From NCBI RefSeq assembly GCF_004664715.2, contig NC_051063.1, positions 69,426,518-69,490,517 on the forward strand: a DNA stretch of 64,000 bases, in the 5' to 3' direction. The stretch is from Peromyscus leucopus. Taxonomy: Eukaryota > Chordata > Mammalia > Rodentia > Cricetidae. Below, piece by piece: positions 21,880-62,694 of the stretch; the stretch's first letter is position 1; every line of letters starts with the position of its first letter. Made by a program: the position numbers and the translations under genes. The notes beneath the pieces are model-generated. The model was not told the DNA's origin. It saw only the letters and a program-made list of their open reading frames with translations, and made no database searches.

Positions 21880-23865
21880 AAGACAGAGGCTGAAGGAGTC
21901 TGTCTGGTGTTTAATCTGTAACACTCTCCTCCTTGACTCCCATGACCCAACAAGCATCTCCTAATGCACATTTAAATGTAATTTTCTCTTGGAGTTATCT
22001 CTCTACTTCTGGTGTTGGAGGGGCAGGAGCTAGCCTAGATTTGTAAACAAGATTCCTTAACTAAGCACTCTAATGGTTCTTGTTTAGTACAGGAATTTCT
22101 GATCTTTTTATAAGCACGTCATGACAAAGATAATCAAAAGACTGGCTGAGATTCTCAAACATAAAACTTGAAGTTGCATAGCAGCTTCTCCATCTATTCA
22201 CCTGTTTATCCACATCTACTACCATCTACCTATGCATCCTCATAGCTTTCATCTATCCATCCGTCTATCCGTCCATCCATCCATCCGTCCATCCATCTAT
22301 CCTTCCATCCATCATCCATCCATCCATCTGTCCATCCATCCGTCCATCTATCCATCATCCATCAATCTTCCCCCATCCATTATCCAACATCCAGCCATCC
22401 ATGCATCTATCCCTCTCTCTTTCTCCACTTTCTTCCTCACATCCACCCGTCTACTTACTAATCCACCCAACCATCTGTGCTCCCACCTATTTTAGTCATT
22501 TTATGAGGATCTACACAGTATTATTAACTATTCTGGAATTTGCCATGGGAGACAACACAGACACATCAGCACAAGCAAAAGGCCAATGCCTTAGAGCGAG
22601 CTGAGTAATAAAGGAATCATCCGAAGTTGAAAGTTCTCATGCTGATCATTAGCAACACTCCTTAGACACTCAGCCAGCCGACACAGAAACTCTCAGCGTG
22701 GCCCGCTCTCCGGAAATGTCGATCGGCTTCCTCCCTCTGCCAGTGGGAGGAGGAGGATGACTTATCCTTCCTCCCGGCTGCTCTACCAGGGCCACTGCTT
22801 CTTATTGCTATTGTTCGCCATCCTTACTCAGTCCTGTCGGCACAAGTGCAGAGCTGTAGGACATCTGACTCACTGTCGCTTCACAGCCCACTGAAGGTTT
22901 GCAAAACTCGACACCTTGTTAAATCGGCTTTCAGCTGGGCTGACTCTGTAATCAGAGCACTTCTTGAATATTTTTTGTTTATGGCACTGACTGTAGCCAA
23001 TATCCATAAAAATCTCATGCCAGTGGTTTCCTAAAATTTGTCATGGAAAAGGAAAGTTCGGAATCAACTCAGAATGTATAAGAAGAGCCGCACAGACGTG
23101 TCCTGTGGTTTTATTACCTTCAGAAGCTTTGCGTGGAGAAGCAAGGTGTAAGCCGCTTCTGTGTAGTTATCACACTCCTTGTGCAGGTCACAGAGCTTGT
23201 ATAAGTACCTGGTGATGAAAGAAGGCTACATTCTAAGAGCGTCACAAGGTCATTTGTGTGGGGGACTGGGGGTGCTAAATTCAACATTCAACAGTAACTC
23301 ATGGCTATGCTTTCTTTTACTATGTTCATAATTCACAATGCCTTGAAAACTGTTGGTGTAGAAATCACTAAAAGAACTGACAGAAATAAATGTAATAATA
23401 ATAACACACACACATATACCAAACATATATAAATAAAAGCATATATTGACATACATATATGCAAATATATAATATTAAGTCATCTTTGTAGGAAAAAAAT
23501 GAATATATTATATAAAGGTAAGAATTTTATTTCAAGGGTCCTTATTTCTTTCATCTTCTCCAGTTTTATTCCTCAAACATTTGAAATGAGATCTAGACTG
23601 CATTTCTCTTGAGTCAAAATGCACACACACACACACACACACACACAAATCCATAAAGATCCAAATCCACAAGATAAAAAAACAAAAACAAAAAACCCAT
23701 GATGACAGCAAATGCGATCAAAAGGAATGTCTGTGCTGTGCGAAGAAAGGGATGCTCTTTACTATAAAGCCAGACACATTTTGGATCAAAGAGGCTGGTT
23801 GTTTTCCTAAGTTTATTATATTCATATGGTATGTTTTAAAAGGAAAAAAAAAAAAAGATAAGAGC

Positions 23866-23896
<31 letters not shown>

Positions 23897-24761
23897 GAAA
23901 AAAAAAAACCACACAAGTACACTCTGTGTAGTTAACAAACAGTCAAGCTTTCTGTCACGTAGATGCAAGGCTAACCTTGTTCTCTAAAGTGGTCCATCAC
24001 CTTGCTGACACTGACCACAGAATCTGAAAAGGGACATGAAATACAGTGCACCACTCTAAGAAAGTGCTTTGATCTCCCAGTGATGCTGGGGATCAAATCC
24101 AGGTCTTCCCCAAGCTCTATCAGTGGTCTGTGTCCTCACTATATCTTAAAACCAAAGAAAGAATCAAATCCAGCTGGCCACACAAAACATTTTTCTTTTC
24201 TGTGTGAAAAAGACAGGCATGTGGGAATAAGGTACTAGTTAAAGTAAGAGTGGACTGCAGAATTAGATTGTCTACTTTTGGGAACTTTATATTTCTCATT
24301 TGATCACATGATTGCTAGGAAACTTTAAATTTTGTAATATATCTTTTAAATTTTTTTTCCAGAAGGGCTACATTTGTTGATCAACAGGAATGGAAACCTT
24401 AAATAACCACGGAGTTTGGCTCCCTAGCTGCCTAAATGTTGCCCTCTTGGCCCAAACTTTACATAGGTATGGACACGCTATATAAGGGCTGAGAGCACAT
24501 CTGAGGCTCCACCAGATTTCGTCTCAAAATCACCCTGATTTTCTACAGAAGACTCTTCAAGGTACAAACCACTTGTTCACATGATTTGACACACAGTGAT
24601 GACAACATGCACAGAAAGGGTGTGGCCTACTACACACACAGGATGCTGGCCAGTGTGCCACATATGTACCTTATACACATCTCATAAGGGATTGCAGTGC
24701 ACACAGAGGATTCCAGCCAGCTCAGCCCATACATCCCTTATCTACATCTCACAGTGATTAC

Positions 24762-24807
<46 letters not shown>

Positions 24808-27800
24808 GCTGGCCAGTGTGGCACACATAGAGGATGCCAGCCAATATGGCACATGCCTACCTTATATACATCTCACAGTGATCACAATGCAGAGGGAGCC
24901 ACCAGAGTGGCTCACACATACCTTATGTACATCTCTTCTCTTTCAATTTCTTTGTAGAAATTCTGAAAAATTAAGCCATGGCATTGTTTTAAAACACTCC
25001 ATTACGTAACACAATACAGAAAACAACAAAACAAAAATTAAAACAACAACTCATCAAAATGGTCCCATATTGTGAGTCCATGGTTCAGTTATGATTGGCA
25101 CATCCAGTGGACCAAGTCTATGCAGAGGAGAGTTCTCAATTTACCGGAGCTCTGAGCACCTCACAGTATTCCTGACTTTTGCTTTTGTAATGACCACCTC
25201 TCAGATGCTTGAGACACTTGAGGACTAAATCTATATGTGTCATTTGAAAGTCACCCATCTGCAGTAAAAACAAGGTGCTGGCTGAAAACACAATCTCTTT
25301 ATCATTGTAGTCTCATTTAAATAAACAATCCAAAAATCGGGAGTAAGGAAAGGCATCATCAGTGATGTCAGTATGCTGGGGTCACCATTTGTGAGAGACA
25401 CAGAAGCATGGGGACATTCTTGTCCTCACGTGTCCCAAACCTCTAGGTACATCTATTTAAAGGTAAAGACATGTTGATTACATAGCCCTGCCACCTACCC
25501 TGAGCAGTGTTGAAGCAGAACCCACCCTCCCACCATCAGCCCATGTTTCCTAGAGAAAATCCATTGTTTTAGAGAGACAGACCTTCCAAACCATAGTGAG
25601 AAAAATAGGTATTCACTTAAAAAGGAAGGAAGGAAGAAGTGAGGGAGGGGGGAAGAAGGAAGGAAGCCCTTCGTACACAACCCTGGTGGGGGAAAAGTTG
25701 GTTTGTGAATTCCAATAAGAGGGCCATTTCTACACATTACGGCAAAATATCATCTAATTCAATGTTTATACCCAAATCACACTTCCGGTGAGCGTGGCAG
25801 TACACATGTGTAATGCCAGCACTTGGGAGGCTGAGGCAGAAGAATTGTGAGTTTGGGCCAGCAAGGACTATATAGAGAATCTCAGACTAGTCTGGGTGAC
25901 ACAGTGAAACCCTGTCTTAGCCTTCCCTCCTGGTAACATTTCTTCTTCGTGTGGACTACTTTATATACATGACGTCACGCACTGGACACTACAAAGGTAC
26001 AGAGTCAACTCACAGGGCCTGTAAGGATGCATTTCTTATCTGTATTAGCTTTTTTTTCATTTATCTGGTGAATTTCATACATGCATACAATGAAACATGA
26101 TCACATCCAATGACTACTTTCCCCTTTAACTCCTTCCCAAACGCTCCCCTCTTAACTTCACGCCTTCTTATTCTCTTTTTGGATAACGCATTAAATCTAA
26201 TTCATGCTGTCACATATGCATGGGTGAGGGCCCATTTCCTGGAACATGTGAACTAGACTAGTGGCCACATATTCATTCTTTTTTCTTTTAAACCTATAGA
26301 TTCATTATTTTAAAAGAACGATTTTCCCAGCCAGGCAGTGATGGTGCACACCTGTAATCCCAGCACTCAGGAAGCAGAAGTAGGCAGATCTCTGAGTCAA
26401 GGCCAGCCTGGTTTCCAGAGTAAGTTCCAGGACAGCCAGGGCTACACAGAGAAACCCTGCCTCAAAGGCAAAACAAAACAAAAAAGAACGATTCTTCCTC
26501 CCCCTTCAGCTATCATCTGGTAATAACTCCTCAGTAAGGGGTGGGACCCAGAGAGCATCCTCAGCATGAAATTTAGCATCTGAGAATGATACTTAAACTC
26601 TACCATCAAGTGTCCGAGGGAGCTGGCAAACATCAACATTATAAAGGAACACAGTGACCCAATAAGATGATTTAATTTCATAGGTCAAAAAGGACACTGT
26701 TTCCAAGGTACAATCTCTCTGGAAAGAAAGGACGGGAGTATGTAGACAGCAGCAAAGACGGGCCATGTTCCGAAGAACTGGTTTTACCTGGTGCTGCACC
26801 TGACATTGGAACGAGCTTTGGTTCCTGTGACGCACACAGTAATGAGGATATTTTCGGCTACAAGTCAAAGACCTAACAAAAGATTCAGAGCGAGCACAGC
26901 GCTTCCTTCTCACTCACAGGCATTCAAAAGTCATGATGTCACAGCAGCCTCTTTTGTGCCCGTGTTTTCAATTCCCTCTTACTATTTTGCTCACTCATGG
27001 ATTCTCCCTTATCCTCTGACCCTCACCCACCTCTCAGACATGGGCTGTCTTTTATCTTCTGCCCTGGATGGTTTGCTATCCTCTTTGAACTTCAAAACCC
27101 CTCTAGAGCTGAATATATAGTCAGTATGTAGTAATATAATATGTAATATTATATGGTTATAGGTCATATATTCCTATATATGAACTTGGCAATGAATGTT
27201 TAGAGATAGGAATTTTTAAATTATTATTTATTTTTAATCTGTGTATGTGTGCGTTTAGTATATGAGTTTGTACAATAGTGCAATGTGCTCTTAGCTGCTC
27301 AGCCATCTCTTTAGGCCCCAGAGATAGGAATCTCATCTGTAATCGTCTAGTTTCTTTTCCTTACTCTCACACATTTACATTCCACATGGACATGTTCAAA
27401 CAGGGCAGGATCCATCCCATCACCCCTGGGCATGGGGAAAGACTAATGTTTCACTTTTCAGACAACGACACAAACTGCTTCCAGGTGAAGAAGTTAATAA
27501 TGTGAGATCACCTCGGGAATTCTGGGTGGCTCTCAGCATGAGCCAGAGCTGACTACGGCCACAGTAGGTGGGCACTGAGTGAGTCTCCAAATAAAGAATG
27601 ACTACACGTCAACATCAGAAACACTTGGCTGCAGATGTCATTCCAAAAGCCTGTTTCCCAACTGTGGCCGCTGGTGATAAGAACCCAAGTTCAGCATGGT
27701 GCCATCTCTCTACCAGGTTTCATGTCCCCCCGAGCAGAGATCTTGCTTAAAAACACACTGAAATCTTAGTCACCAAAGTTGGAAGCCTAATGAATCTATT

Positions 27801-39800: not shown

Positions 39801-42796
39801 GTGCCAGAAGGATAGAGGAAGTCAACAGATAAGTGCTGTGGTCCTGGAGGGAGGGCCCTGGTGTGGGGGAGCAGGGATAGAGAGAAGGATGAAGGTTGGA
39901 GATGAGAAAGGGTAAGGAATGGTGAGTCTTCTCAAATGAATGTGATCAGGAGGCAGAGAGGGCAAGCCAAGGCCACTGCAACTAACTTATACTAGACAAC
40001 CAAATGACCAGGATACCAGCCGAAAAATAAGTGATGGGGAAGGTTTTGGGCACAGCATCTTCCTGGGAGGCTGAGGCAGCTGATCTTTTCCCAGTCCTCA
40101 GGAATAGACTGGCACAGAAGAGATCTGCTACAGTTGGCACCTCTAGAGTGCCCCCCAAATCCACGTGATGGGCGCTTGGTCTCCAGGAAACCTTTAGTGT
40201 GGGAGATGTGTAGGCCAATGAGATGCACCTTTGAGGGAGATCAGGGCCTCAGCTCTTCCTTGACTTCTTTTCTTTTCCTGGCCCTGGGGTGTGTGGCTTT
40301 ATACCACTACTCCTCCAGGCCCTTATGGTGAGCTGCCCTACTAAAGACCCCAAACAACAGGGACAGTTGATCATGAGCAAAAACCCTCTCAAGCTTCGAG
40401 CCAACACAGGATTATCTCCTGTTTTGTTCTGGTGAGGAGAGAAAGCTTGTGATCACGAGATTGTTCCAACAGACTTTATGGATTTTGTCTTTTGGGCTGC
40501 TTCACTTAGAGCCATCACTGCGTGCAACCCTGTGTCTCAACACAAATGGAAAACGGCCAGTGAGTTTTCTGCCAAATGCTGGCATATGAGACCACGCTTA
40601 GCCTGATATGTCTCTTTTGTGGATCTGCTTGCTCATGGCCCTGCTTTTATTTGCCTACATCCAAGCAAGGTGTGTTTTAAGTCGGTGAAATGCTTCTAGA
40701 AATTGAGTGTGGGTTCGGGAGCGTCGCTGCTCTGTGGTGTGACTCAGGAAGTTTAGCTTCCTGCAAAAACGAAGGGCAGAGTCTGAATGCCCCGAAGGAG
40801 GAAAGTGTTCAGACTGGAGATCCTGCTTCTATGACTCTCACTAACTTCTACCATTTTCCAGCAAACCTGGAGGAAATCAGCATGGGAAGCACCTCCTTAG
40901 AAGACGACTGTAGGGTAGTTAGAAACGTCCACAACACAGCAACCAGACACAAAGACCACGAGGAGGCAAGGGAAATGCAGAAACTCACTGCTCATTCATC
41001 TTCATTTCAGCTACCCTTGACCTTTGTTTTGACCCAAAAACTATGTTTAAAAATCGAGAAATGGTATAAATGGCTTTTGATTTTAGTTTTCTGGACTTGT
41101 GACATTTATCTATATAAACACTTTCTCTCCCTTTACCCGAATCTTTAAATTAATAGCAGTTTTCACAAGTCTTTCTTTGTGCTCGGTTCATATGAAATTC
41201 AAAAAGTCAGATGAATCTTATGCCTGGGAGAAGTATTTTAGATTCTAATTTGTACTTTCAACAAGCCTGGAGTGACACTGGAGCCCGGCTTTAGAGGCGC
41301 CAGCAGTGGAGGCAGGTCAAAGCTTATAGCAATAATATCAAACAATTTGGCAATAATGTCAAATGGTACAAAAGCATTTTGATTCCAAAATTACATTTCT
41401 GAGTATGTATACTGGGGAAACATTCAATATGATTCAAGCTATGTGAATGAGCAGGTACACAGTACATTTATTGATAGTAGAAACTGAGCAGCCTAGGGCA
41501 AAAAAGTCAATCTGTTTCCAGAAGTGTTATATCTCCATTAAAATCAGATTTAAAAATTACACACACACACACATATGCACACCACATATATATTAATGTA
41601 TATTTGTGTATATTATATGTGTGTGTGAGTGGGTATGTGTGTGTGGGAGTACACAGCCCACCCGCAGAGGTCAGGAGTGCACAGCCCACCTGCAGAGGCC
41701 AGGAGTGCACAGCCCACCTGCAGAGGTCAGGAGTGCACAGCCCACCTGCAGAGGTCAGGAGTGAGTGCACAGTCCACCTGCAGAGGTCAGGAGTGCACAG
41801 CCCACCTGCAGAGGCCAGGAGTGAGTGCACAGCCCACCTGCAGAGGCCAGGAGTGCACAGCCCACCTGCAGAGGTCAAGAGTGCACAGCCCACCTGCAGA
41901 GGCCAGGAGTGCACAGCCCACCTGCAGAGGCCAGGAGTGCACAGCCCACCTGCAGAGGCCAGGAGTGCACAGCCCACCTGCAGAGGTCAGGAGTGAGTGC
42001 ACAGCCCACCTGCAGAGGCCAGGAGTGCATAGCCCACCTGCAGAGGTCAGGAGTGCACAGCCCACCTGCAGAGGCCAGGAGTGCACAGCCCACCTGCAGA
42101 GGTCAGGAGTGAGTGCACAGCCCACCTGCAGAGGTCAGGAGTGCACAGCCCACCTGCAGAGGTCAGGAGTGCACAGCCCACCTGCAGAGGTCAGGAGTGC
42201 ACAGCCCACCTGCAGAGGTCAGGAGTGCACAGCCCACCTGCAGAGGCCAGGAGTGCACAGCCCACCTGCAGAAGCCAGGAGTGCACAGCCCACCTGCAGA
42301 GGCCAGGAGTGCACAGCCCACCTGCAGAGGCCAGGAGTGCACAGCCCACCTGCAGAGGCCAGGAGTGCACAGCCCACCTGCAGAGGCCAAAGGGGGTCGT
42401 TGAGTGTCCTGTTCTCAGTCTCCACCTTATTCCCTGAGACTAAACATCTCACTGTACCCAAAGCTCACCTTTTGGTTAGGCTGGCCAGCCAGCAAGCTCC
42501 TAGGACCCATCTGTCTCCTGCCTCAGCAGTAGAATGGGTCACTATGCTGAGCTAAGCTTTTTTAAAAACAAGTATTCTAGGGATTCAAACTCAGGTCTTC
42601 ATGCTTTCACAGAAAATGCTCTAAACCCATTAAGCCCTCTTTCCAGCCTTAGGATTTAATGTAAAGTCCATATAAACACCAGTAAGGGACAGCTAGAAAC
42701 CAAGGACCATCCTCCCCAAAGAGGAAGACAGAAGAGGACAGATTCTTCAGTAAGGATGGTCACAGCCTTTTCTTTGAGGTGTGGAGAACCGTGTGT

Positions 42797-53699: not shown

Positions 53700-53749
<50 letters not shown>

Positions 53750-54014: not shown

Positions 54015-57000
54015 TCACAAACCCATTACTTTGTATGATAACTAATACGTATATGTGTGATGTTTATCAGCCATGGAGTGTAGGACATCCAGGTGTAGGT
54101 GGAACAACAGAGTTGGGAGGTCAGCTACTTCCTCTCAGGCTAAGCTGGGATCTACAGACCCAGCCCAGCAAGCCAGTGAGCGCTGACAGGTGTTCTCAGT
54201 AAATCAGGGGTTCTCAGCCAGCAGTGGACTCATGGTCAAGAAGAGTCACTCCCACAGCAATGGGAAGCCTGAGCCAGCCAGTAAGACCACCACCAGCAAA
54301 GCCTGTGGGTCTGGGGTCCTGGGTGACAGGGAGATACGGTTCCACGCTTGACTCTCCCTTCCAATTGCTCAAGTAAGTTGTCCATCCTTTTGAGGTTTCT
54401 CAGCAGCCACTGCCACCTGGGCCCGGGCAAGATGCAGTTGGCATCATCTGGCATTTATCAGGGGGAGAGGAATCACATTAAGACCCAGCCTTGACTATTT
54501 TTTTTTTCTGAGATTAATGGACTAGTCACTTTAAGCTACAAGGCCTCAGACAAGACTGGGACACACAGCATTATGGCAGGTGGCTACACAACATAAACAT
54601 CCTCAGCTCTCTAGCCCCCTATGATCATGTGTTCATAGCCTCAACCTACTAACGATGCCAGTGGTACCAAAAGTGGTATCACTAACTCTGGCTTTGAACA
54701 TCTTGCATCTAGGCTAGGGGGAGGATTTCTTCTCAAAACACAAGAATGTCTAACAGTAGGCTTCATGGGTGTCTCTGTTTCTCTGCCCTTGACTCAACCT
54801 TCTCTCAGCCCTCTACTGATTACAGTTCTAATAGCTAAAGGAAGTTCTGGGGTTTATTTTGCCAGCAGCAGGTTTAACATTTGTGACTCGGGTTGGTGAC
54901 CTGCCTTTCTCCAGCTGTTTTGGAAATGAAGAGTTCTGTGCCTGCTAGTCAGCACCTGCCTTGCTGAAGGATGGTGAGGACCATAGGTTTCCTCTCACTG
55001 CTGCTTCCTGGACTCAGGTGATGATTTGAATAGTAGTATTTGAGAGCCAGGGGGCCGGCATTTATCAGAGCAGGTGATTCTCGTGAGAGCCAGGCCTACA
55101 GCACAAGGAGCTGAAAATACTGTTTAACAGTCAAATAAGACAAGATGCCTGGAAACCCAAACAGAGAAGAGGGAGCCGCATGGTGGAAGGCAGGACTGGA
55201 GTTCCCCAGCAGTGGGCGTGATCCTTCCTTTACATTTAATGAGAAGGCAGAGCTGATGAATCTATACATGCTTCCTAATAATTCCCAAGTGGAACAGCAG
55301 CTGTCACCAGGCCTTAAGAGGGCTTGCGGGAAACGCTTCTACCTTCTTCTCTTGGAAGAGAAAGATGATGATAATTGAGAGTGTCTGGTTGAAGCTCAAT
55401 TCCTGGACGCAGGCCTCGGAGCTGGGGGCAACCGTAGAGATCACAGTTAAGTGGCTCTCTCACAGTGTAGAGTCAGGGAGCTGGCCCAAGCCCGGAGGGG
55501 AGAAGCCGGATGACTTGGCTTGGATTACAGGGCAAAGAGAGAAGAGAGTCCACGTCCTCAGACCACAAGCCCACACTGTCCCCTGCACTGTGCACACTCT
55601 TGCCACTGGGTGTCACATCTTCTTCCATCTCCTATCACTATTACAGTGCCATGCCACTCTTCCAACAAGGAACCAGGACTCACGGTGCCAAGCAGATGAG
55701 CCTGGCTCCACCAAGGCGTAAGGACAAAGACCTGGAGTGACCTCCCTTCTGTGTGTTCACCCACCAAGTGAGCATAAGAAAGTTGGCTTGAGAGGGAGCC
55801 CTTCCCTAGTCCAGGAAGCGCTAAGTTCCTACACTTAGGCTTAATGCTAGCACGTGGACTCCTGTATCTTTAACCCAAGAAGAGAGAAAGAATTACATCT
55901 ACCACATTCAGCCCTCCTAAGGGATAAAGCAACCATATCCCAAATCTAAGCACAGCTGGACAAAGACCCGGGTCCTCTGGTCCCCACCTTCTTTCACAGC
56001 GTAGGGAAACAGCTCCTGAATGGAGAGAGTAGGGTGGTGCTCACTCTCTCCCAGCCAACACTCTAGTGAGGAGATGCTGCAATTTAAAGGGCTTACCTTA
56101 ACCACAGCATCTCGCTCCTGGCTGCAAGGGCCAGTAGACGGATTCATTTACTGAGAACTCCAACAAGACCCACAGGCCTCGGGAGACACACGTCATGACA
56201 GGAGAGACAGACTTCAACTCCAGAATCACACAGGTTATCTACATATCTTCTACACATGATTCCCGTGGGTGGTGACCTTACTTGGAAATAGGATCTGTAC
56301 GATGTAACCTAGTTGCAATGAAGCCGCACTGGAGTAGAGTGGACCCTGAATGCAAGAAGTGCTGTTCCTATGAGGAGGACACACTAAGTCACAGACATAG
56401 AAGGAAGCTATGAAAAGAACCTAACCTGGAGACGAGCAGGGAGTGGATTGACAACACAAGCTAGGGGATGCTGAGGACTGGGGACAGCCAGCGGAAGTGA
56501 ATAGAACCTCCCCCAGCAGAAGAACCTACACCATCGCTTCTGGTTTTCAGACTACCAGCCTCTATAACTACCGGACGACAGATTGTGACTTTGTTGTGCC
56601 CCACTGTGATGGCAGTGGAACCCAGGGAACATATGCAATGATCCATCTACTTCGTATCTGGCCCAGTCAACAATTAGAATCTAGAACCTGAAAAATGCTT
56701 TTCTAAGGAGAGAATAAACCAAGAATACTACGACCAAGGTTGGAGGGGGCTCTGACATGGGATGTGTGGGTCTAGAAATCTAAACCAGACAAGGAACCAG
56801 GCTGGAGAGGCAGAAGCAAGCCTAGAATGGAGTACTAGGGGAGAAGGAGATGGAGTTCTTGAAGATGGAGTGTTGTGATTTGGACACTGTTGTCCCCAAA
56901 GGTCCATGTGCTGCAAGTCTGGTCTCCGAGGTAATAGGACAGAGAGATGGCAGACATTAAGACATCTAGATGTGGTTATATCATGAGAATACTGCCTTCA

Positions 57001-61662: not shown

Positions 61663-62694
61663 CATGTGAGTGCTTGTATGCCGAGATCGGAGGTGTTGGA
61701 CACCCCCTTCCACATGCTTTGAGGAAAGGTTTCCTGTTTGCTTCCGTGTAAGCCTGAAAGCTCTGGGGGATTGTCCTGTCTCTCTTTCTCATCACACTAT
61801 ATGAGTTCTGGAGTTACAGATGTGCACTATTTGTGTCTAGCTTTACACGTGTTCTGGGGATGTGAACTCGGATACTTAGGGTTAAGCAGCAAGCATGTGA
61901 CCCACGGAGCCATCTCCTCAGCCCGTGACCTTCTTTCTTGACATGGGAACAGGATCATTCAGGATGGCCTCTGGTACCACAGAACTGCCCAAGGATCTTG
62001 GCCTTCATGAAGCTTCTTCAATGACACACAGGCTAATCTCGTCCACTCAAACCCAGAGGAAGACAGGGAACTTTCGTGCCAAGAAGGGAACCATGGAGAG
62101 CTCTGTTTCAGCAGGCTGGACAGTTCCAGCAGGCTGGACAGTTCCAGCAGGCTGGACAGTTCCAGCAGGCTGGACAGTTCCAGCAGGCTGGACAGTTCCA
62201 GCAGGCTGGACAGTTCCAGCAGGGCTGACGGCCTTCATCAGAACCCTCTTTTGCAGAAGCGGAATTGGAAAAGTAAGCAATAAAGGAAACCACATGTATA
62301 ATGACATCAGGAGAGTGCTCAGCAAAAGTCATTATCTCCAGAAACTCAAATGCCATGTAGCACTAACCATCTCCAATCACACTGACTTTGAACCTACCAG
62401 GATGAATCCTGCAATTTGGAGTTCTTGATTCACGGGTTACAAAGGCGATGCCGGATTTGTGATTTGAAACCACCCTTTCCTTACACTGTGATTACATCTC
62501 AATTTGTACCCAGTTGGCTTAGAGGAGACATGGAAATTAGGGTAATAAGCAGGAGGCTCCTGCCCGGAGCAGCAGAGCTGGGGAACAACTTACTTGTTGA
62601 AGATTTTGGCTCTCTTAGCACTTGAAAAATTCTCCAGCTGCAGGGACTCTTGAGTGAGGAAAGCCACGGCCAGGTGAAAATAGTTGTTCCACAG
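4227..62694 (-). CDS. Dock1: Dock1 (DOCK180) partial gene: ten internal coding exons
   Basis: Minus-strand join of exons 62694-62594, 52681-52623, 43095-42947, 32597-32512, 32328-32172, 24962-24922, 23208-23118, 19303-19184, 5199-5110 and 4331-4227. The total is 999 nt, 333 codons, with no internal stop and compatible phases at every junction; all introns are GT-AG. DOCK1 is a cytosolic and membrane-recruited guanine nucleotide exchange factor that, with ELMO, activates Rac1 in migration, engulfment of apoptotic cells and myoblast fusion (family knowledge). The window covers the helical segment before DHR-2 (codons 1 to about 184) and the first, helical lobe of DHR-2 (from about codon 185). 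The SH3, DHR-1, catalytic lobes B/C and proline-rich tail are outside the window. DOCK1 is preferred over DOCK5 and DOCK2 on remembered paralog differences in the last exon; an alignment would settle it. The next 3' exon is not visible, so the intron at the left edge exceeds 4.2 kb. Confidence 0.93.
4332..5109 (-). other. Dock1: 778-nt Dock1 intron
   Basis: GT-AG intron between exons 5199-5110 and 4331-4227. It contains a T-rich tract (A-rich on the sense strand) at 4568-4614. No other recognised element. Confidence 0.85.
5110..5199 (-). CDS. Dock1: Dock1 coding exon (90 nt), DHR-2, phase 0 to 0
   Basis: The acceptor is CCCTCACAG (ending at 5200) and the donor is GTAAGC at 5109-5104. It encodes 30 codons, [16 protein letters not shown] through LSELL. 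The initial ATG is internal methionine, not a start, because the acceptor directly precedes it and the frame is open from the previous exon. The exon is symmetric and is followed by a 778-nt intron. Confidence 0.93.
5815..6041 (-). mobile_element. B3-like SINE, antisense, with expanded (GT)28
   Basis: Ends with GTGCTGGGAACTGAACTTGG, CACTCTTAACAGATGTGCC and CATCTCCTCAGCCCC, the reverse of a tRNA-derived SINE head. Its 3' tail contains an uninterrupted (GT)28 at 5833-5888, so the microsatellite probably grew from the SINE tail. Confidence 0.7.
5833..5888. repeat. (GT)28 microsatellite
   Basis: Fifty-six bases of pure GT between TTATTC and ACCAGTGCC, inside the antisense B3-like SINE. Confidence 0.95.
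6588..6795 (+). mobile_element. URR1-type hAT DNA transposon fossil
   Basis: Contains CTTAACCTGTGGGTCCAGAC, CCCCTTTGGGG, ATATTTACATTATAATTCAT, ACAGTTATGAAGTAGCAAC, GGTTGGGGGTCACCACAACC and TTAAAGGGTCGCAGCATCAG, ending AAGGTTGAGAGCCGCTGG. These are hallmarks of the non-autonomous rodent URR1 family. The two ends are near-complementary (CTTAACCTG versus AAGGTTGAG), as expected for terminal inverted repeats. Confidence 0.8.
6800..8620. other. Intronic sequence with one old B1
   Basis: A degenerate antisense B1 lies at about 7230-7345 (CTCAAGTGCTGGGATGATAG). The remainder is unremarkable intron; ORFs here lack splice context or recognisable domains. Confidence 0.5.
8620..8830 (+). mobile_element. 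B4-like SINE, sense
   Basis: tRNA-like head GGCAGACAGTTCAGCAGG, GTAAGAGCACTTGATGCGC and GAGTTCAAATCCCCAGCA, followed by GCCTGGCACGGTCTCACCG and GTAACTCCAGCTCTGTGAGG. It is diverged. Confidence 0.55.
8831..11744. other. Intronic sequence, nothing recognised
   Basis: About 2.9 kb of the 14-kb Dock1 intron. It has no exon-like ORF with splice borders and no clear SINE. An AT-rich patch lies at 10980-11070. ORFs of about 145 aa (9190 region) and 120 aa (10253-10615) show no recognisable family features. Confidence 0.45.
11745..11885 (+). mobile_element. B3-like SINE head, sense
   Basis: GGGGCGGTGACATAGCTCTG, GACCCTGGAACCCACATGG and TGTCCTCTGGCCTCCACGGG follow the order of a B3/B2 element; the 3' tail is missing or decayed. 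Confidence 0.5.
12090..12530 (+). repeat. Two adjoining rodent dispersed repeat fragments
   Basis: The first piece ends TTGGTTCTGTTCGTCTAGAG then GGCCCTGACTAATACAG, a common rodent repeat end also seen near 45800-45840. The second (from about 12320) has GCTTCCTGACTTTGGGTG, CATGTTGGACTG and AATAAGTCCTTCCTCCCTTA, resembling another LTR-like rodent family. Family names are uncertain. Confidence 0.45.
12838..13142 (-). mobile_element. B4 SINE, antisense
   Basis: Plus-strand order: GTGTGTGGAGGCCAGAGGCC, TTTTTGAGATAGGGTCTCTC, ACTGAACCTGGAGC, GGGATCCTCCTGGGCGC, GTGCTGAGATTATAG, GATGGAACTCAGGTCC and CATCTTCCCAGCCC. This is the reverse complement of a full-length B4 (tRNA head plus B1-like body). ORFs here are SINE shadows. 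Confidence 0.75.
13400..13535 (-). mobile_element. Old B1, antisense
   Basis: GACACATGGTCTTCCTGCG, TAGCCCAGAACTCAAGC and GGGCATGCACCAGCAAGTCC correspond to a decayed B1 in reverse. Confidence 0.45.
13553..13746 (-). mobile_element. B2/B3 SINE, antisense
   Basis: ATTTATTTATTCTTATCTTATG at the tail, GTGGGTGCTGGGAATTGAAC, CAGCCAGTGCTCTTAACC and ACTGAGCCATCTCTCCAGCC at the head end. This is well preserved. Confidence 0.8.
14075..14400 (-). repeat. Old mammalian LTR-like repeat, antisense
   Basis: Shows CATTTTCTCATAGTACTAGG, GAAGTCCAAGACCAAAG, TGTCTTCACATGGTTGTCC and ATTTTGGGAGGATACAATC, the typical reverse order of an ancient MaLR-like repeat. Strongly diverged. Confidence 0.45.
14410..14710 (+). 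mobile_element. B4 SINE, sense, diverged
   Basis: AAGCATGAGGACCTGACTC, AACTGGATGTGGTGCTG, GTAATCCTAGGCCTGGGG, GGTAGCCAGTCTAGTC, GTTTGGTGAGAGACGCTGTT, TCAAAA and an AC-rich tail follow B4 order. Confidence 0.65.
15085..15480 (+). repeat. Rodent dispersed repeat, about 400 bp
   Basis: Recognisable blocks: GTTACCTTCCGTCACTGTG, GAGCAACATGGGGAGGAAGG, GCAGAGGCCATGGAGGAGGG, CATGGCTTGCTCAG, CAGGACCACCTGCCCAGGGA, TGGCCCCACCCACAGTGGGC, CAATCTTATGGAGACATTTT and GTGTCAAGTTGACGAAAAC. I know this as a common rodent repeat but will not give a family name. Its ORFs are not genes. Confidence 0.6.
15500..17750. other. Intronic sequence with a MER5-like fragment
   Basis: The stretch 16640-16760 reads GAACCTCAGTGCTATTGACA, TTCTGGGCTGGATG and TGTGCATTATGGGAAG, which resembles MER5-type hAT-Charlie DNA transposon remnants. 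The rest is ordinary intron without exon evidence. Confidence 0.5.
17757..17965 (+). mobile_element. Old B1-tRNA composite SINE, sense
   Basis: A B1-like part (TCCTAGTTGCTCAGAACAC, GGAGGGTCACAAGTTCAAAT, CAGCCTGGGAAACTTAG) is followed by an ID/tRNA-like part (AAAGCACTTATTTAGCATGG, GGTTCAATTCTCAGCAACAC). Diverged. Confidence 0.5.
19184..19303 (-). CDS. Dock1: Dock1 coding exon (120 nt), DHR-2 lobe A, phase 0 to 0
   Basis: The acceptor is TTTTTGCCTCAG (ending at 19304) and the donor is GTAAGA at 19183-19178. It encodes 40 codons from [10 protein letters not shown] through HYFDKGK, including [17 protein letters not shown]. It is a symmetric exon (phase 0 at both ends), so skipping would remove 40 residues in frame. 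The following intron, 14.0 kb, is the longest complete intron here. Confidence 0.93.
19978..20140 (-). mobile_element. B1 SINE (cricetid subtype), antisense
   Basis: The T-rich tail is followed by CGAGACAGGGTTTCTCTGTG, GCTTTGCGCCTTTCCTGG, AACTCACAGAGATCCGCCTG and GTGCTGGGATTAAAGGCG. The GCTTTGCGCCTTTCCTGG segment is the cricetid-type B1 variant and is the best lineage clue here. A short flanking duplication (AACTACTT-like) is visible on both sides. Confidence 0.9.
20145..21820. other. Intronic sequence, nothing recognised
   Basis: About 1.7 kb of the 3.8-kb intron. It includes a poly(A) run at 21078-21089 and a short TATATACATA patch at 21430-21446. No coding signal. Confidence 0.45.
21823..21874. 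repeat. (GT)26 microsatellite
   Basis: Fifty-two bases of pure GT between CACATAC and ATATGAAG. Confidence 0.95.
22235..22420. repeat. (CCAT)n degenerate tetranucleotide array
   Basis: Repeated CATCCATC, CGTCCATC and TATCCATC units over about 185 bp with C/T and G/T interruptions. The HPSIHPSI-type ORF through it is a by-product. Confidence 0.9.
22430..23110. other. Intronic sequence next to exon 23208-23118
   Basis: No repeat recognised. The part 22690-22900 is relatively GC-rich, with CpGs (CTCTCCGGAAATGTCGATCG). Nothing further can be supported. Confidence 0.4.
23118..23208 (-). CDS. Dock1: Dock1 coding exon (91 nt), DHR-2 lobe A, phase 2 to 0
   Basis: The acceptor is TTCATCACCAG (ending at 23209) and the donor is GTAATA at 23117-23112. 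One base completes arginine, then 30 codons from [10 protein letters not shown] through HAKLLK. This helical segment belongs to lobe A of DHR-2, which in DOCK proteins supports dimerisation and orders the catalytic lobes (established for the family). Confidence 0.93.
23622..23647. repeat. (CA)13 microsatellite
   Basis: Short CA run in the 1.7-kb intron. A-rich runs follow at 23849-23860 and 23868-23909. Confidence 0.9.
24600..24935 (-). repeat. Diverged tandem array copying a Dock1 exon end and donor site
   Basis: On the minus strand the true exon end reads ATGTACATAAG|GTATGT (junction 24922/24921). Related blocks follow in the intron: ATGTATATAAG|GTAGGC (24861/24860), ATGTAGATAAG|GGATGT (24737/24736) and ATGTGTATAAG|GTACAT (24670/24669). 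Between them are shared segments: CACTGGCCAGCAT or TGGCTGGCATCCTCT, CTGTGTGCA and CATTGTGATCACTG. Units are about 61-67 nt apart, except where (TG)n expansion and an extra partial unit stretch one interval to 124 nt. The array ends within the 41-nt coding exon. Confidence 0.8.
24763..24805. repeat. (AC)21 microsatellite inside the tandem array
   Basis: Pure AC run that interrupts one unit of the exon-end tandem array. Confidence 0.95.
24922..24962 (-). CDS. Dock1: Dock1 coding micro-exon (41 nt), phase 0 to 2
   Basis: The acceptor is TTTTTCAG (ending at 24963) and the donor is GTATGT at 24921-24916. It encodes [13 protein letters not shown] (13 codons) plus AG of an arginine codon completed by exon 23208-23118, giving the family-typical [13 protein letters not shown] place the beginning of DHR-2 about here from family knowledge. 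Because 41 is not a multiple of three, skipping would frameshift. The end of this exon and its donor are duplicated, in diverged form, in a tandem array in the following intron. Confidence 0.92.
25790..25925 (+). mobile_element. Old B1-like SINE, sense
   Basis: GTGTAATGCCAGCACTTGGG, AGGCTGAGGCAGAAGAATTG, CTAGTCTGGGTGACACAGTG and AAACCCTGTCTTAG keep Alu/B1 (7SL-derived) order. Confidence 0.75.
26045..26285 (+). mobile_element. L1-derived fragment (rodent)
   Basis: CATACAATGAAACATGATCA, ACTACTTTCCCCTTTAACTC, CATTAAATCTAATTCATGCT and GAGGGCCCATTTCCTGGAAC match a widespread rodent L1-derived segment. A second, differently truncated copy lies at 28150-28395. Confidence 0.5.
26325..26490 (+). mobile_element. 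B1 SINE, sense
   Basis: CCAGCCAGGCAGTGATGG, CCTGTAATCCCAGCACTCAG, AGGCCAGCCTGGTTTCCAGA and CAGGGCTACACAGAGAAACC, ending in an AAACAAAACAAAAAAG tail. Confidence 0.9.
26495..28149. other. Intronic sequence, mostly unannotated
   Basis: An AT-rich stretch near 27120-27245 includes a short antisense SINE end at about 27270-27320 (CTCAGCCATCTCTTTAGGCC). Nothing else recognised. Confidence 0.45.
28150..28395 (+). mobile_element. L1-derived fragment, second copy
   Basis: CAACTCCTCCCAGATCCACT, CTCCCTACATTCCCAAC, TGAATGGGTGGCCATCCACC and AGAGTGTGGTTGATTTGTAG resemble the fragment at 26045-26285 and its rodent L1 relatives. It is directly followed by poly(A). Confidence 0.5.
28412..28494. repeat. Poly(A) plus (GGAA)13 purine tract
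   Basis: A run of A to 28441 is followed by 13 uninterrupted GGAA units (28442-28493). The whole is an 80-nt homopurine block on the plus strand (homopyrimidine on the Dock1 sense strand). Confidence 0.92.
28910..29385 (-). mobile_element. B4-like SINE, antisense, interrupted by a B3-like SINE
   Basis: Outer element: CACACATGTAGAGGTCAGAA and GACAACCTCAGGTGCTGTTC, resuming with TTTTGAGGCAGGGTCTCTTA, GGGCTGGGATTATAAG and CTCAAACTCAGATCCTCAGC. Inner element about 29025-29215: AATATTATTTATTTACCATG, GTGGAGGTGATGGG and GGGTCCTGAGGACTGGACAC. This is a nested insertion. Confidence 0.55.
29930..30131 (-). mobile_element. B2/B3 SINE, antisense
   Basis: ACTTTATTATTTATTTATATG tail side, GAGGCCAGAAGAGGGCATTG, GTGCTGGAGTTACGGGAGG and CTTAACCATCTCTCCAGCCC head end. 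Confidence 0.8.
30140..30435 (-). mobile_element. B4 SINE, antisense
   Basis: GT-rich tail, then TTCAGAGGCCACAGGAGG, CACTGAGATAGGGCCTCTCA, TTGAATCTGGAG, AGCAAGCCCCAGCGATCC, TGGGATACAAACTCAGGG and GCCATCTCTGCAACCCC. It sits head to tail after the B2/B3 copy. Confidence 0.7.
30440..31245. other. Intronic sequence, possible ancient repeat
   Basis: Bases 31040-31230 (TTAGCTGGGTGGCTTC, CACAGTCATGGGGTTCTGAA, GTCAAGGTGTCAGTAGGCC) look like an ancient mammalian repeat of uncertain family. The rest is unremarkable. Confidence 0.4.
31250..31395 (-). mobile_element. Old B1, antisense
   Basis: CACTGAAACAAGGTCTTCTG, TGCTATGTAGCTGAGGCGGG and GTGCACCACCATGCCCACC are a decayed B1 in reverse. Confidence 0.5.
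31505..31735 (-). mobile_element. B4 SINE, antisense
   Basis: TTTGAGATAGAGTCTCTCAT, TGGCCTGGAGCGTACC, AGAGCTGAGATTATATG, GGATTGAACTTGGGTCTTCA and GGCAAGTACTTTACAGACTG. A (CCACC)n-like C-rich tract follows at 31737-31768. Confidence 0.6.
32172..32328 (-). CDS. Dock1: Dock1 coding exon (157 nt), phase 2 to 0
   Basis: Largest exon in the window. The acceptor is ATTTTTCAG (ending at 32329) and the donor is GTGAGC at 32171-32166. One base completes isoleucine, then 52 codons run from [10 protein letters not shown] through SCTVNVL. It includes the [16 protein letters not shown] helix. It is the last exon before the segment I take as the DHR-2 start, so it links the helical spine to the exchange domain. 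Confidence 0.93.
32329..32511 (-). other. Dock1: 183-nt Dock1 intron
   Basis: GT-AG intron between exons 32597-32512 and 32328-32172. No repeat inside. It is the only short intron among multi-kilobase neighbours, so the two exons are probably recognised together by intron definition (inference). Confidence 0.9.
32512..32597 (-). CDS. Dock1: Dock1 coding exon (86 nt), phase 0 to 2
   Basis: The acceptor is AATTATAG (ending at 32598) and the donor is GTAAGT at 32511-32506. It encodes [10 protein letters not shown] through KVLFDK (28 codons) plus AT, completed by C in the next exon to give isoleucine. An acidic/glycine stretch ([10 protein letters not shown]) sits in the middle. It is separated from the next exon by an intron of only 183 nt, far shorter than every neighbouring intron. 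Confidence 0.93.
32600..33725. other. Intronic sequence, nothing recognised
   Basis: Start of the 10.3-kb intron's 3' part (upstream of exon 32597-32512 on the minus strand). No repeat or exon signal. Confidence 0.4.
33735..33950 (-). mobile_element. B1/B4-type SINE, antisense
   Basis: GGAAATAGGATCTCGTGTAG, TTCAGGCTGGCTTCAAAGTC, CCTCCCAAGTGTTGGGATTA, GGTGCTGAGGATGGAACCAG and AATGAGCTACATTCCTAGG: a B1 body plus a tRNA-like head, decayed. Confidence 0.6.
34250..34657 (-). mobile_element. Cricetid LTR, antisense copy
   Basis: Plus-strand blocks include CCTTAGCTTAGGCTTGTTTC, GGCTAGCTTTTCC, CTAGCTATTGGCTGTTCAGC, TTTTTATTAGATCAATC, GGCAAAGTAAAACAGC, AGTTAAACAAATGCGG and ATTCTATTCCACAACA. These are reverse-complement equivalents of the LTR at 2309-2791. 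No internal viral genes adjoin it. Confidence 0.55.
34660..38655. other. Four kilobases of intron without recognised repeats
   Basis: Low repeat content compared with the rest of the window. It has a small SINE-head remnant at 36280-36310 and T/C-rich patches at 37943-37957. No exon, RNA gene or convincing ORF; the 176-aa minus ORF (38600-38070) has no recognisable features. Confidence 0.45.
38665..38898 (-). mobile_element. B1-tRNA composite SINE, antisense
   Basis: TTTTTTGAGCCAGGGTTTCA, AGGATAGCTTCAAACTTGC, AAAGGGCTGGGATTAAACAC, CACCATGCCTGG, CAATGCTGGGGATCAAACCC and CTATCCACTGAGCCATATGC. Confidence 0.65.
38900..41545. other. Intronic sequence, low repeat content
   Basis: No transposon recognised over about 2.6 kb. 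An AT-rich conserved-looking patch lies near 39535-39620. The 152-aa plus ORF (40690-41148) has no domain I can recognise and no splice context. Confidence 0.45.
41550..42655 (-). mobile_element. B4 SINE, antisense, expanded by an internal minisatellite
   Basis: CA/GT-rich tail (41557-41650), then GCCCACCCGCAGAGGTCAGG, the 26-copy array, and resumption of B4 order: GGTCGTTGAGTGTCCTGTTC, TCTCCACCTTATTCCCTGAG, GGCTGGCCAGCCAGCAAGC, GGGATTCAAACTCAGGTC and AAGCCCTCTTTCCAGCC. The array therefore splits one B4 element between its tail-proximal and B1-like parts. Confidence 0.65.
41652..42390. repeat. 28-bp minisatellite, 26 copies
   Basis: Copies start with CACAGCCCACC at 41652, 41680, 41708 and so on to 42368. 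Of the 25 intervals, 21 are 28 bp and four are 32 bp (after copies 4, 6, 12 and 16, where GAGTG becomes GAGTGAGTG). Each unit holds a CTGCAG. The main variant is GAGGTCAG versus GAGGCCAG; the last six copies are all the C type. Every frame on both strands is open, producing long spurious ORFs up to 308 codons. Confidence 0.97.
42791..42852. repeat. (GT)n microsatellite, about 62 bp
   Basis: GT run with one A interruption (42801), about 95 nt downstream of the Dock1 donor at 42946 on the minus strand, where it reads as (AC)n. Confidence 0.93.
42947..43095 (-). CDS. Dock1: Dock1 coding exon (149 nt), phase 1 to 0
   Basis: Two bases complete the split glycine; 49 codons follow, beginning [10 protein letters not shown] and ending TRSFQM. 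The donor is GTAAGG at 42946-42941. The acceptor is unusually weak looking: CTTTATTGAAAG with few pyrimidines next to the AG. It lies only 25 nt from the A/T-rich tail of a B1 element, so the branch-point region borders transposon sequence. The peptide with [20 protein letters not shown] is typical of the DOCK1-type helical region. Confidence 0.93.
43119..43320 (-). mobile_element. B1 SINE (cricetid subtype) beside a Dock1 acceptor
   Basis: Body 43163-43310: CGAGACAGGGTTTCTCTGTA, GCTTTGCGCCTTTCCTGG, AACTCACAGAGATCCGCCTG and GTGCTGGGATTAAAGGCG. The tail has become (ATT)n and (GTT)n at 43121-43159. A likely target-site duplication CTATTATT occurs at 43119-43126 and 43311-43318. The element is in Dock1 sense orientation, its tail ending 25 nt before the exon at 43095. 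Confidence 0.9.
43465..43790 (+). mobile_element. B4 SINE, sense
   Basis: GGCTGAGGAGGTAGCTCAG, GTAAAGCATTTGCCATGTAA, GGCATGGCGGCACTCATCC, TGGATCCCTGGGGCAGGATG, GTTCAGTGAGAGACCCTGCC and TCAGTAAATAAAG, then a CA-rich end. Confidence 0.75.
43965..44130 (+). mobile_element. B3-like SINE, sense
   Basis: CAGGCCAGCAAGATAGCACA, GTAGATAAAGGTGTTTGCC and CCAGAACCCACATAAAGG: a tRNA-like head with a decayed body. Confidence 0.6.
44183..44357 (+). mobile_element. B2/B3 SINE, sense, well preserved
   Basis: GGGGCTGGAGAGATGGCTCA, TTAAGAGCACTGGTTGCTCT, TTCCCAGCACCCACATGG, GCTCACAACTGTCTGTA and an AAAATAAAAAC tail. The Pol III A-box-like GGCTCAGCAATTAAG and B-box-like GGCTTCATTTCCC segments are visible; it is a SINE, not a tRNA gene. 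Confidence 0.85.
44755..45070 (+). mobile_element. B4 SINE, sense, with an internal decamer array
   Basis: GGGCTAAGGAGATGAAGGG, GCAAGCATGGTGACCCGAG, TTCCATCCTCGG, the GGGAGGTGGA array, CTCACTGGCCAGCCAAACCC and TGGTGAGCTCCAGGCTCAC follow B4 order. The array sits where B4 normally has a single GGGGAGGNGGAGAC. Confidence 0.75.
44871..44920. repeat. Five perfect copies of GGGAGGTGGA
   Basis: Fifty bases, five identical decamers inside the B4 element. The plus strand carries many GGG and GG runs. Confidence 0.95.
45145..45845 (+). repeat. Rodent dispersed repeat, split by a B1
   Basis: Blocks CACACCTGTGAGGGATGTTT, CTTGATTAGATTATTTGAAG, TGGGAAGACCCAGCCTAAAT, TTTCATGGACTGAACAATTA and TTCTGTTCCTTTAGAGAATG, CTGACTAATAACACC. 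The end resembles the element at 12090-12280. Family name uncertain; probably LTR-derived. Confidence 0.55.
45534..45685 (-). mobile_element. B1 SINE, antisense, with perfect 16-bp TSD
   Basis: CAAGACAGGGTTTCTCCGTG, GCTTTGCACCTTTCCTGG, AACTCACAGAGATCCACCTG, GATTAAAGGCATGCACC. The usual GAGTGCTGG segment is deleted. GAGTCTTGGCCTTTGT occurs at 45518-45533 and again at 45686-45701, a perfect target-site duplication, showing insertion into the older repeat. Confidence 0.93.
45850..46620. other. Unique intronic sequence, candidate conserved element
   Basis: No repeat recognised. It includes an AT-rich homeodomain-site-like stretch (AGTTAATTAATCTTATTAAT at about 46026-46046) and CpGs near 45925-45975. 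Evolutionary conservation cannot be judged from this window. Confidence 0.4.
46621..46650. repeat. A30 homopolymer
   Basis: Thirty consecutive A on the plus strand with no recognisable SINE or LINE body upstream. Confidence 0.95.
46945..47310 (+). repeat. Rodent dispersed repeat (LTR-like)
   Basis: TGATTGTGATGGTTTGAATG, TTTAGGAGGTGCAGCCTTGC, TGGAGGAAGTACGTCACCGG, GGGCGGGCTTTGAGAG, CTGCTGCCATGCTTTCTCTG and TGTGTCTTATGACGGGGACA. Shares its TGGTTTGAATG start and GGAGGAAGT core with the element at 60098-60440. Confidence 0.55.
47315..48830. other. Intronic sequence, nothing recognised
   Basis: No SINE seen. G-rich patch at 48648-48680. The overlapping minus ORFs (47398-48449) have no recognisable domain. 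Confidence 0.4.
48837..49058 (-). other. Uncharacterised 73-codon ORF, possible exon or retrocopy
   Basis: Starts at ATG 49058 (context AAGCATGA) and stops with TGA. The product is acidic and serine-rich: it begins [14 protein letters not shown], has SPSSGSQAT in the middle and ends with [17 protein letters not shown] and GLWEE. An in-frame TAA lies 18 nt upstream. The sequence just before it (GGCTCTTACAG, ending at 49063) resembles a splice acceptor on the Dock1 strand. I do not recognise a family. It could be a chance ORF, a fragment of a retrocopy, or an alternative exon; the frame is not compatible evidence for any Dock1 domain. Confidence 0.25.
49070..50700. other. Intronic sequence, nothing recognised
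   Basis: A-rich patch at 49190-49390. The 186-codon plus ORF at 49566-50126 has no recognisable domain or splice evidence. Confidence 0.4.
50710..50800 (+). mobile_element. B1 fragment, sense
   Basis: CCAGGTGTGGTGGCACACAT, CTCAGGAAGCTGAGGCAG: 5' half of a B1, truncated. Confidence 0.65.
51325..51547 (-). mobile_element. B2/B3 SINE, antisense
   Basis: ATGTGGGTATTCTGCCTGCA, GTGTTGGATCCCTAGGATTG, GTGGGTGTTGGGAATCAAAA and CTTAACCATTGAGCCATCTC, TCCAGCCCCC. Confidence 0.8.
51561..51613. repeat. (TG)12(CG)8 alternating purine-pyrimidine tract
   Basis: TG repeats pass without break into CG repeats and then CATGCATGCACAT, giving 53 nt of strict purine-pyrimidine alternation, a Z-DNA-prone composition. 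Confidence 0.92.
51614..51760 (-). mobile_element. B4/B3-like SINE, antisense, diverged
   Basis: CAGTGCTTGGTTCTCTCTTT, AACCACATGAGTCTTAGGAT, CAAATTCAGGTCATCAGGCC and GAGTCATCTTACTGGCCC. Its tail is the adjacent TG/CG tract. Confidence 0.6.
51911..51930 (-). promoter_or_regulatory. CTCF-like motif candidate
   Basis: On the minus strand the core reads CCACCAGGTGGTG, matching the CTCF consensus CCASYAGRKGGCR at 12 of 13 positions. It lies outside any SINE I recognise. A single motif match is weak evidence without binding data. Confidence 0.3.
52245..52538 (+). mobile_element. B4 SINE, sense, with (CA)14 tail
   Basis: GGGGCTGGGAAGGTGGCTTG, TGAGTTCAAACCCAGAACC, GTGCCGGGGAGGTGGAGACA, CTGGGTCCCTGGGGCCTGG and a (CA)n tail at 52511-52538. 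It ends about 85 nt beyond the donor of exon 52681-52623 on the minus strand. Confidence 0.85.
52623..52681 (-). CDS. Dock1: Dock1 coding exon (59 nt), phase 2 to 1
   Basis: Short exon with acceptor TTTCTAG (ending at 52682) and donor GTGAGT at 52622-52617. One base completes the K codon. Nineteen codons follow, [10 protein letters not shown] through MWYNL, then one base of a glycine codon. The split glycine (G|GT) is completed exactly by exon 43095-42947, confirming both boundaries. It is part of the helical region before DHR-2. The exon is flanked by introns of 9.9 and 9.5 kb. Confidence 0.93.
52690..53690. other. Intronic sequence, candidate unique element
   Basis: No repeat recognised. 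AT-rich stretch 53220-53350 and a CpG-containing piece 53350-53420. Nothing else supportable. Confidence 0.4.
53704..53745. repeat. (CA)n microsatellite
   Basis: CA run preceded by TATATATACATA. Faces an inverted (GT)n at 53972-54012. Confidence 0.94.
53972..54012. repeat. (GT)n microsatellite
   Basis: GT run of about 41 nt, complementary to the (CA)n 226 bp away. Confidence 0.94.
54015..56225. other. Intronic sequence, nothing recognised
   Basis: About 2.2 kb of the 9.9-kb intron with no clear transposon and no exon signal. Confidence 0.4.
56240..56700 (+). repeat. Ancient LTR-like repeat (MaLR type), diverged
   Basis: GGTGACCTTACTTGGAAATA, GGATCTGTACGATG, GAAGCTATGAAAAGAACC and TGGTTTTCAGACTACCAGCC keep the order of old MaLR-like repeats. 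Same broad family as 14075-14400 in reverse. Confidence 0.45.
56875..57370 (+). repeat. MaLR-type LTR (MST/MLT1-like), diverged
   Basis: TGTTGTGATTTGGACACTG, TTGTCCCCAAAGGTCCATGT and AAGACATCTAGATGTGG at the start, with CTTTACCAAGTAACCACACT later. It contains a small internal degenerate duplication of AGATCTCTTGAGAG / AGATCTCTCAGGAC at 57058-57105. Confidence 0.5.
57380..58185. other. Intronic sequence, nothing certain
   Basis: Poly(A) at 57574-57588. AT-rich unique block 57815-57960. No coding signal. Confidence 0.4.
58192..58375 (+). mobile_element. B1 SINE, sense
   Basis: TTAGTGGCATACACCTTTAA, TTCCAGCACTCCGGAGGCAG, AGCTAGCCTGATGTACATAG and GACCCTGTCTCAAAC with an AAAATAAACAAAAAC tail. 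Confidence 0.85.
58380..60090. other. Intronic sequence, nothing recognised
   Basis: A-rich run at 58853-58868. No exon or repeat family assigned. Confidence 0.4.
60098..60440 (+). repeat. Rodent dispersed repeat (LTR-like), well preserved
   Basis: GGTAGTTTGAATGAAAATGG, CACTATTAGGAGGTGTGGCT, AGAGGAAGTGTGTCACTGTG, TGGGCTTTGTGGTCTCCC, GATCAAGATGTAGGACTCTC, CTTCTCCAGCACCATGCCTG, GAAATGTTTTCCTTTG, GGTCATGGTGTCTCTTCACA and AACCCTAACTAAGACA. This is a familiar rodent repeat; I cannot give the family name with confidence. Confidence 0.65.
60445..61105. other. Intronic sequence, nothing recognised
   Basis: No repeat assigned. A degenerate (CATA/CACA)n patch follows at 61118-61190. Confidence 0.4.
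61585..61925 (-). mobile_element. B4-like SINE, antisense, with (TG)n tail
   Basis: (TG)21 at 61620-61660, then GATCGGAGGTGTTGGACACC, GAGTTCTGGAGTTACAGATG, TGGGGATGTGAACTCGGATA and CACGGAGCCATCTCCTCAGC. Confidence 0.65.
62109..62223. repeat. 18-bp minisatellite, six perfect copies plus a partial
   Basis: Unit CAGCAGGCTGGACAGTTC starting at 62109, 62127, 62145, 62163, 62181 and 62199, then a degenerate seventh copy. As 18 is divisible by three, it encodes an (AGWTVP)n plus-strand peptide by chance. It lies about 370 nt into the intron after exon 62694-62594. Confidence 0.96.
62594..62694 (-). CDS. Dock1: Dock1 coding exon (101 nt), phase 0 to 2
   Basis: Most 5' Dock1 exon in the window. The acceptor is TTTTCAG at 62701-62695 and the donor is GTAAGT at 62593-62588. 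It encodes 33 codons starting [10 protein letters not shown] and ending AKIFN, plus two bases (AA) of a lysine codon completed by the next exon. The segment lies in the helical region between DHR-1 and DHR-2. The reading frame is continuous into exon 52681-52623 (K-YGDMRRQ). A six-copy 18-bp tandem repeat lies about 370 nt into the following intron. Confidence 0.93.

Follow-up and report, generated by a model that had tools for sequence, protein, structure and literature searches.

A decayed tandem repeat of a DOCK1-type exon end and its splice donor in Peromyscus leucopus, with a donor-like intronic copy that is probably little used

The window analysed here, a 64,000-nt stretch of Peromyscus leucopus DNA, carries on its minus strand coding exons of a DOCK-family gene, two of which bound the intron that is the subject of this work:

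Positions 24922 to 24962, minus strand: a 41-nt DOCK1-type coding exon, DHR-2 lobe A, with its last codon split.
Positions 23120 to 23208, minus strand: the next coding exon, acceptor partner of the former; the last bases of the exon are left out of this interval.

The 41-nt exon, read from 24962 to 24922, has the 3' end AAG/GTATGT (the slash marking the splice position) and closes with two bases of an R codon. When a 114-residue query composed of this exon and the next three exons in the window (starting at 23208, ~19303 and ~5199) was compared with the PDB collection, the five matches returned were chains of DOCK5 (E 3.4e-48) and DOCK2 (E 1.6e-44) only, and the same peptide matched DHR-2 Lobe A in Pfam (4.6e-18). 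The peptide of the exon itself reads REEMYIR in DOCK2 and REDIYIR in DOCK5, and aligns to both without gaps. An IUPAC back-translation pattern of the exon found 0 stretches in bacterial and archaeal contigs and 0 in viral contigs, as is expected there. We take the gene to be DOCK1, rather than another DOCK-A member, on the strength of the earlier note and of the sequence known for DOCK1. The next exon, at 23208, opens CAG/GTACTT, which pairs with U1 at -7.1 kcal/mol and could in principle present a possible AG/GT donor after splicing.

The last 14 bases of the 41-nt exon, its donor and approximately 47 nt of intron constitute a repeat unit (minus strand), of which three further copies follow within the intron. 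The block GAGATGTnnATAAGG, together with donor and spacer, starts at 24935, 24874, 24750 and 24683, that is, at intervals of 61, 124 and 67 nt, and the array comprises the following features:

Positions 24875 to 24935, minus strand: unit U0, 61 nt, with the last 14 exon bases, the native donor (G at 24921) and the first 47 intron bases.
Positions 24751 to 24874, minus strand: unit U1, 124 nt, with decoy donor D1 (G at 24860, AAG/GTAGGC), 61 nt beyond the native site.
Positions 24795 to 24828, minus strand: a spacer-only partial fifth copy within U1, without the exon-end motif, 88% to the reference copy.
Positions 24763 to 24804, minus strand: a tract of (GT)21 (transcribed strand) that begins 56 nt beyond D1.
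Positions 24684 to 24750, minus strand: unit U2, 67 nt, with donor position D2 at 24736 (AAG/GGATGT), dead.
Positions 24590 to 24683, minus strand: unit U3, its right border placed by eye, with decoy donor D3 (G at 24669, AAG/GTACAT), a weak site 252 nt downstream of the native one.

An earlier note on this DNA had described four copies of the motif, with donors at 24921, 24860, 24736 and 24669 and with distances of 61 and 252 nt, and all of these values were recovered as given. It had taken the last 11 exonic bases to be shared; those bases are indeed repeated, but the block begins three bases earlier, at GAG, which brings the exonic share to 14 bases. In front of the intronic copies the remaining 27 bases of the exon, those upstream of GAG, are absent, and therefore one border of the duplication lies within the exon. 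U1 is longer than the other units because of the (GT)21 tract and the second, motif-less spacer block (24828 to 24795). The sharing of intronic spacer, likewise described before, was borne out by an independent repeat search, which returned in-register copies in three families (3, 4 and 4 copies), the spacer-only piece being an addition to what had been described. At a score of 30, Tandem Repeats Finder listed nothing at the array but the (AC)n tract; the array is therefore degenerate, and it is not a minisatellite in the sense of similar head-to-tail units found by that program. In U3, EMCIR can still be read in frame, and D3 joined to the next exon would read on, but stops lie upstream. Four GT runs of at least 16 nt occur on the minus strand of the window, that of the array being the longest and the others starting at 53745, 52538 and 23647.

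Local alignment of the units gave identities, over ungapped columns, of 47/57 for U0 and U1, 44/55 for U0 and U2, 37/50 for U0 and U3, 45/56 for U1 and U2, 69/85 for U1 and U3 (an alignment that runs into the GT tract) and 49/64 for U2 and U3. The 20-mer GAGATGTACATAAGGTATGT, taken around the native donor, occurs with four or fewer mismatches at four places on both strands of the 64 kb, all of them in the array and the native site among them; the next-best place, at 56247, has five mismatches. Against the downstream intron the first unit scored 26.0, as compared to a mean of 12.9 (sd 2.0) and a maximum of 22.0 among 2000 dinucleotide shuffles, in which the GT run was masked and the two remaining pieces were shuffled separately, and none of the 2000 reached 26.0. 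The units are thus alike beyond chance, as had been proposed. An interspersed repeat within the window was rejected as a source of the similarity, given that U0 scored at best 16.5 outside the array when both strands were covered by 850 overlapping blocks of 300 nt, as compared to 25.5 and 19.0 for those blocks of the array that exclude U0. Also rejected were a structured RNA (z-score 0.93; 88 of 100 shuffles folded equally well or better) and a known RNA (no Rfam match reached the gathering score in positions 23000 to 26000).

Similarity between tandem neighbours is in itself frequent in the window. When 2120 sliding 61-mers of the minus strand were each compared with the 285 nt downstream of them, 38 reached a score of 26.0 or more; four of these fall in the DOCK1 intron array and 23 in an array at 41.7-42.4 kb. 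The sole unusual feature of the present array, relative to the other tandem similarity here, is that the repeated segment takes in the end of an exon together with a functional donor. The larger array (41629 to 42552), the strongest self-similarity of the sliding scan of the window, consists of closely similar units and holds a 308-aa open frame of repeated blocks on the plus strand. Short tandem arrays at 62011-62280 and 22246-22458 read, in one frame, as SRLDSS and SIHP repeats.

The native site and its copies were scored as donors by log-odds from a human donor frequency table and by duplex energy with the U1 5' end, the duplex program choosing its register freely. The native donor scores 5.64 and pairs at -8.7 kcal/mol. 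D2 has GG and, as the earlier note had it, is the copy destroyed by a change of GT to GG. The description of the two remaining copies as decoys is apt for D1, which is good as a 5' splice site (4.62, -9.2 kcal/mol), and overstated for D3, which is weak (1.31, -5.6 kcal/mol). Among the 144 GTs that lie past the native donor and up to the first base of the next exon, D1 comes first by either measure and D3 takes seventh place by the frequency table. Over the 3595 GTs of the whole minus strand, each site itself being counted, those with an equal or better table score number 12 for the native donor, 51 for D1 and 240 for D3, and those with an equal or better U1 energy 71, 60 and 354. D1 is a true donor-like site by score, but such quality is ordinary, arising approximately once in 1.25 kb.

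The consequence of using either copy is governed by a feature within the first bases of the intron:

Positions 24912 to 24914, minus strand: a TGA in frame at intron positions +8 to +10, the intron reading Y V stop; a stop for any extended exon.

Use of D1 would extend the exon by 61 nt and use of D3 by 252 nt. Because of this TGA, either extended exon would terminate the protein at ...MYIRYV, irrespective of the number of bases added. The frame shift that had been foreseen as the consequence does not stand, as the stop ends the protein first and the 252 nt of D3 are a multiple of three. A protein so truncated would retain almost none of the DHR-2 exchange domain, and a transcript with an extended exon and many exons downstream should be a substrate for nonsense-mediated decay.

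With regard to the origin of the array, we favor an old tandem duplication of a segment of approximately 61 bp straddling the exon/intron border, which probably arose through replication slippage or unequal exchange and would have been followed by more copying, growth of the GT microsatellite inside the array and neutral decay. The exon end would then be the source copy, kept constant by the protein, and the intronic copies relics. This direction, also that of the earlier note, is indicated because the exon peptide is kept in DOCK2 and DOCK5, such that the exon is older than the array; the copies sit in sequence with several stops. The opposite order, in which intronic repeats came first and gave rise to the exon end, we regard as scarcely credible: similarity by itself carries no direction, but the ungapped alignment of the exon peptide to DOCK2 and DOCK5 implies that the exon end predates copies as diverged as these. 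Nor do we give appreciable weight to a chance resemblance in an AT/GT-rich intron, or to a duplicate of the assembly. The region is rich in GT and in simple sequence, but the shuffles described above rule out the former, and the units differ from one another at 10 to 15 of 45 aligned columns (22-33%), which is not expected of a false duplication. Over the 30 spacer columns, 9 to 13 differ between units (Jukes-Cantor 0.38 to 0.65). Rodent substitution rates are 3.5 to 7 per billion years and site, and at these rates the age is probably 27 to 92 million years from the spacer and 19 to 63 from the whole block, crude values that come from the units of this one array and are subject to few columns, alignment choices and conversion. 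The divergence suggests an old duplication event and no false duplication in assembly. The motif is better kept than the spacer, with 13/15 against 12/30 invariant columns in the four units (Fisher p = 0.004) and 13/15 against 15/30 in the three intronic units (p = 0.023), in a comparison that is biased, the motif having served to pick the units, and the fifth piece, which lacks it, having been excluded; because of this definition and omission we do not take the difference as selection.

As to the fate of D1, we infer that it is mainly unused, since the native consensus is better and transcripts using D1 would meet the stop and probably undergo nonsense-mediated decay; selection against the stop may also contribute to its silence. 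Against a silent relic stands the fact that D1 is the best of the 144 intronic GTs and pairs with U1 slightly more strongly than the native donor. The donor scores and U1 pairing of D1, the in-frame stop in its extension and the start of (GT)21 at 56 nt past it would also suit an alternative, which we consider unlikely, in which D1 is a working donor of low or regulated use, yielding a 102-nt poison exon and less DOCK1 via nonsense-mediated decay, and in which (UG)21 may let TDP-43 silence D1. The downstream one of two occupied 5' splice sites is preferred where they are more than 40 nt apart, according to work cited in the consulted part of PMC5933811, and D1 lies at 61 nt; the consulted part of PMC10809524 gives 167 to 433 cryptic 5' splice sites per gene for three genes in a reporter assay. 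TDP-43 represses cryptic sites near UG tracts (PMC13343711, consulted part), and a (UG)n tract does lie close to D1. PMC13343711 also lists human DOCK1 among the mis-spliced genes, but the event is not known to concern the present intron; moreover, the three other GT runs of at least 16 nt on the same strand of the window render the tract unremarkable. Repression of D1 by TDP-43 at (UG)21 may accordingly be entertained as a lead only. We would consider it highly improbable that D1 beside the array-grown (UG)21 forms a lineage-specific DOCK1 poison switch, with U1 on both sites, TDP-43 silencing D1, and loss of TDP-43 leading to D1 and the in-frame stop. It is also improbable that the copies act, uncut, as U1 landing sites that aid recognition of the 41-nt exon in the manner of an intronic enhancer. 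D1 pairs well with U1, and exon definition is known to be promoted, for PAH exon 11, by a U1 site that lies ~+17 to +20 into the intron (PMC5933811, consulted part), but D1, at +61, is farther away than in PAH, where greater distance led to skipping and cryptic use. The native donor, furthermore, is strong by the table (12/3595 as good or better; 71/3595 by U1 energy) and so needs little help. Most likely, the locus holds a decayed tandem duplication with a D1 copy that is little used; in the reading as a whole, that is, an old and decayed tandem duplication with the exon end as source and D1 donor-like but mainly unused, we place qualified confidence, somewhat above even.

Several known systems bear comparison with this array. 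The units of the IFI6 minisatellite are 12 nt long, present in ~26 copies and sited at an exon end. As in IFI6, the tandem units of the DOCK1 array start near the exon end, at the exon/intron border, and carry the donor position with them; of the downstream copies of that position, D1 is good, D3 is weak and D2 lacks GT. In IFI6 the minisatellite is a source of multiple splice donors, and two of its downstream units are used (PMC4526556, consulted part), and the paper on its donors is cited in the consulted parts of both PMC4526556 and PMC2572611. The DOCK1 array differs in that its units are 61 to 124 nt, four in number and decayed, and in that an extension meets a stop at once; donor use is known for IFI6, whereas the DOCK1 copies were read from sequence. 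IFI6 is the nearest precedent, to which the DOCK1 array adds a small and decayed example. Zhuo et al. reportedly described, in PNAS in 2007, the gain or change of introns by tandem genomic duplication. Such duplication of AGGT segments is reviewed in PMC3443670 (consulted part), and here too a splice-site-like AGGT is copied in tandem. In that process, however, it is a segment of an exon that is duplicated, with a new intron arising between the copies, whereas the DOCK1 copies sit within an intron that was already present and no additional one is evident; the native donor and the AG of D1 are 61 nt apart, and inspection of the sequence before that AG revealed no clear pyrimidine tract. Most cryptic donors arise by chance, and the DOCK1 copies differ from most of them in descending, as it appears, from a real donor. 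They resemble pseudo-5' splice sites and cryptic donors (PMC10809524, consulted part) in being donor-like GTs near a real donor that are presumed silent. Duplicated donors in Dock1 are absent from the titles and abstract openings of the literature matches listed for Dock1, which is weak evidence of absence, and apparent mentions of 'dock1' in the consulted parts of PMC10325915 and PMC12424998 are of DOCK11 and DOCK10.

The array is a compact natural record of donor copies that arose beside a real donor and decayed in place, one of them dead, one weak and one strong. It allows one to ask if, and why, a site descended from the native donor, at +61 and with equal U1 pairing, is ignored. Judged from sequence, its interest would be low to moderate unless RNA shows use of D1; if D1 is in truth regulated, the tandem repeat would make a poison switch in the gene of a Rac activator.
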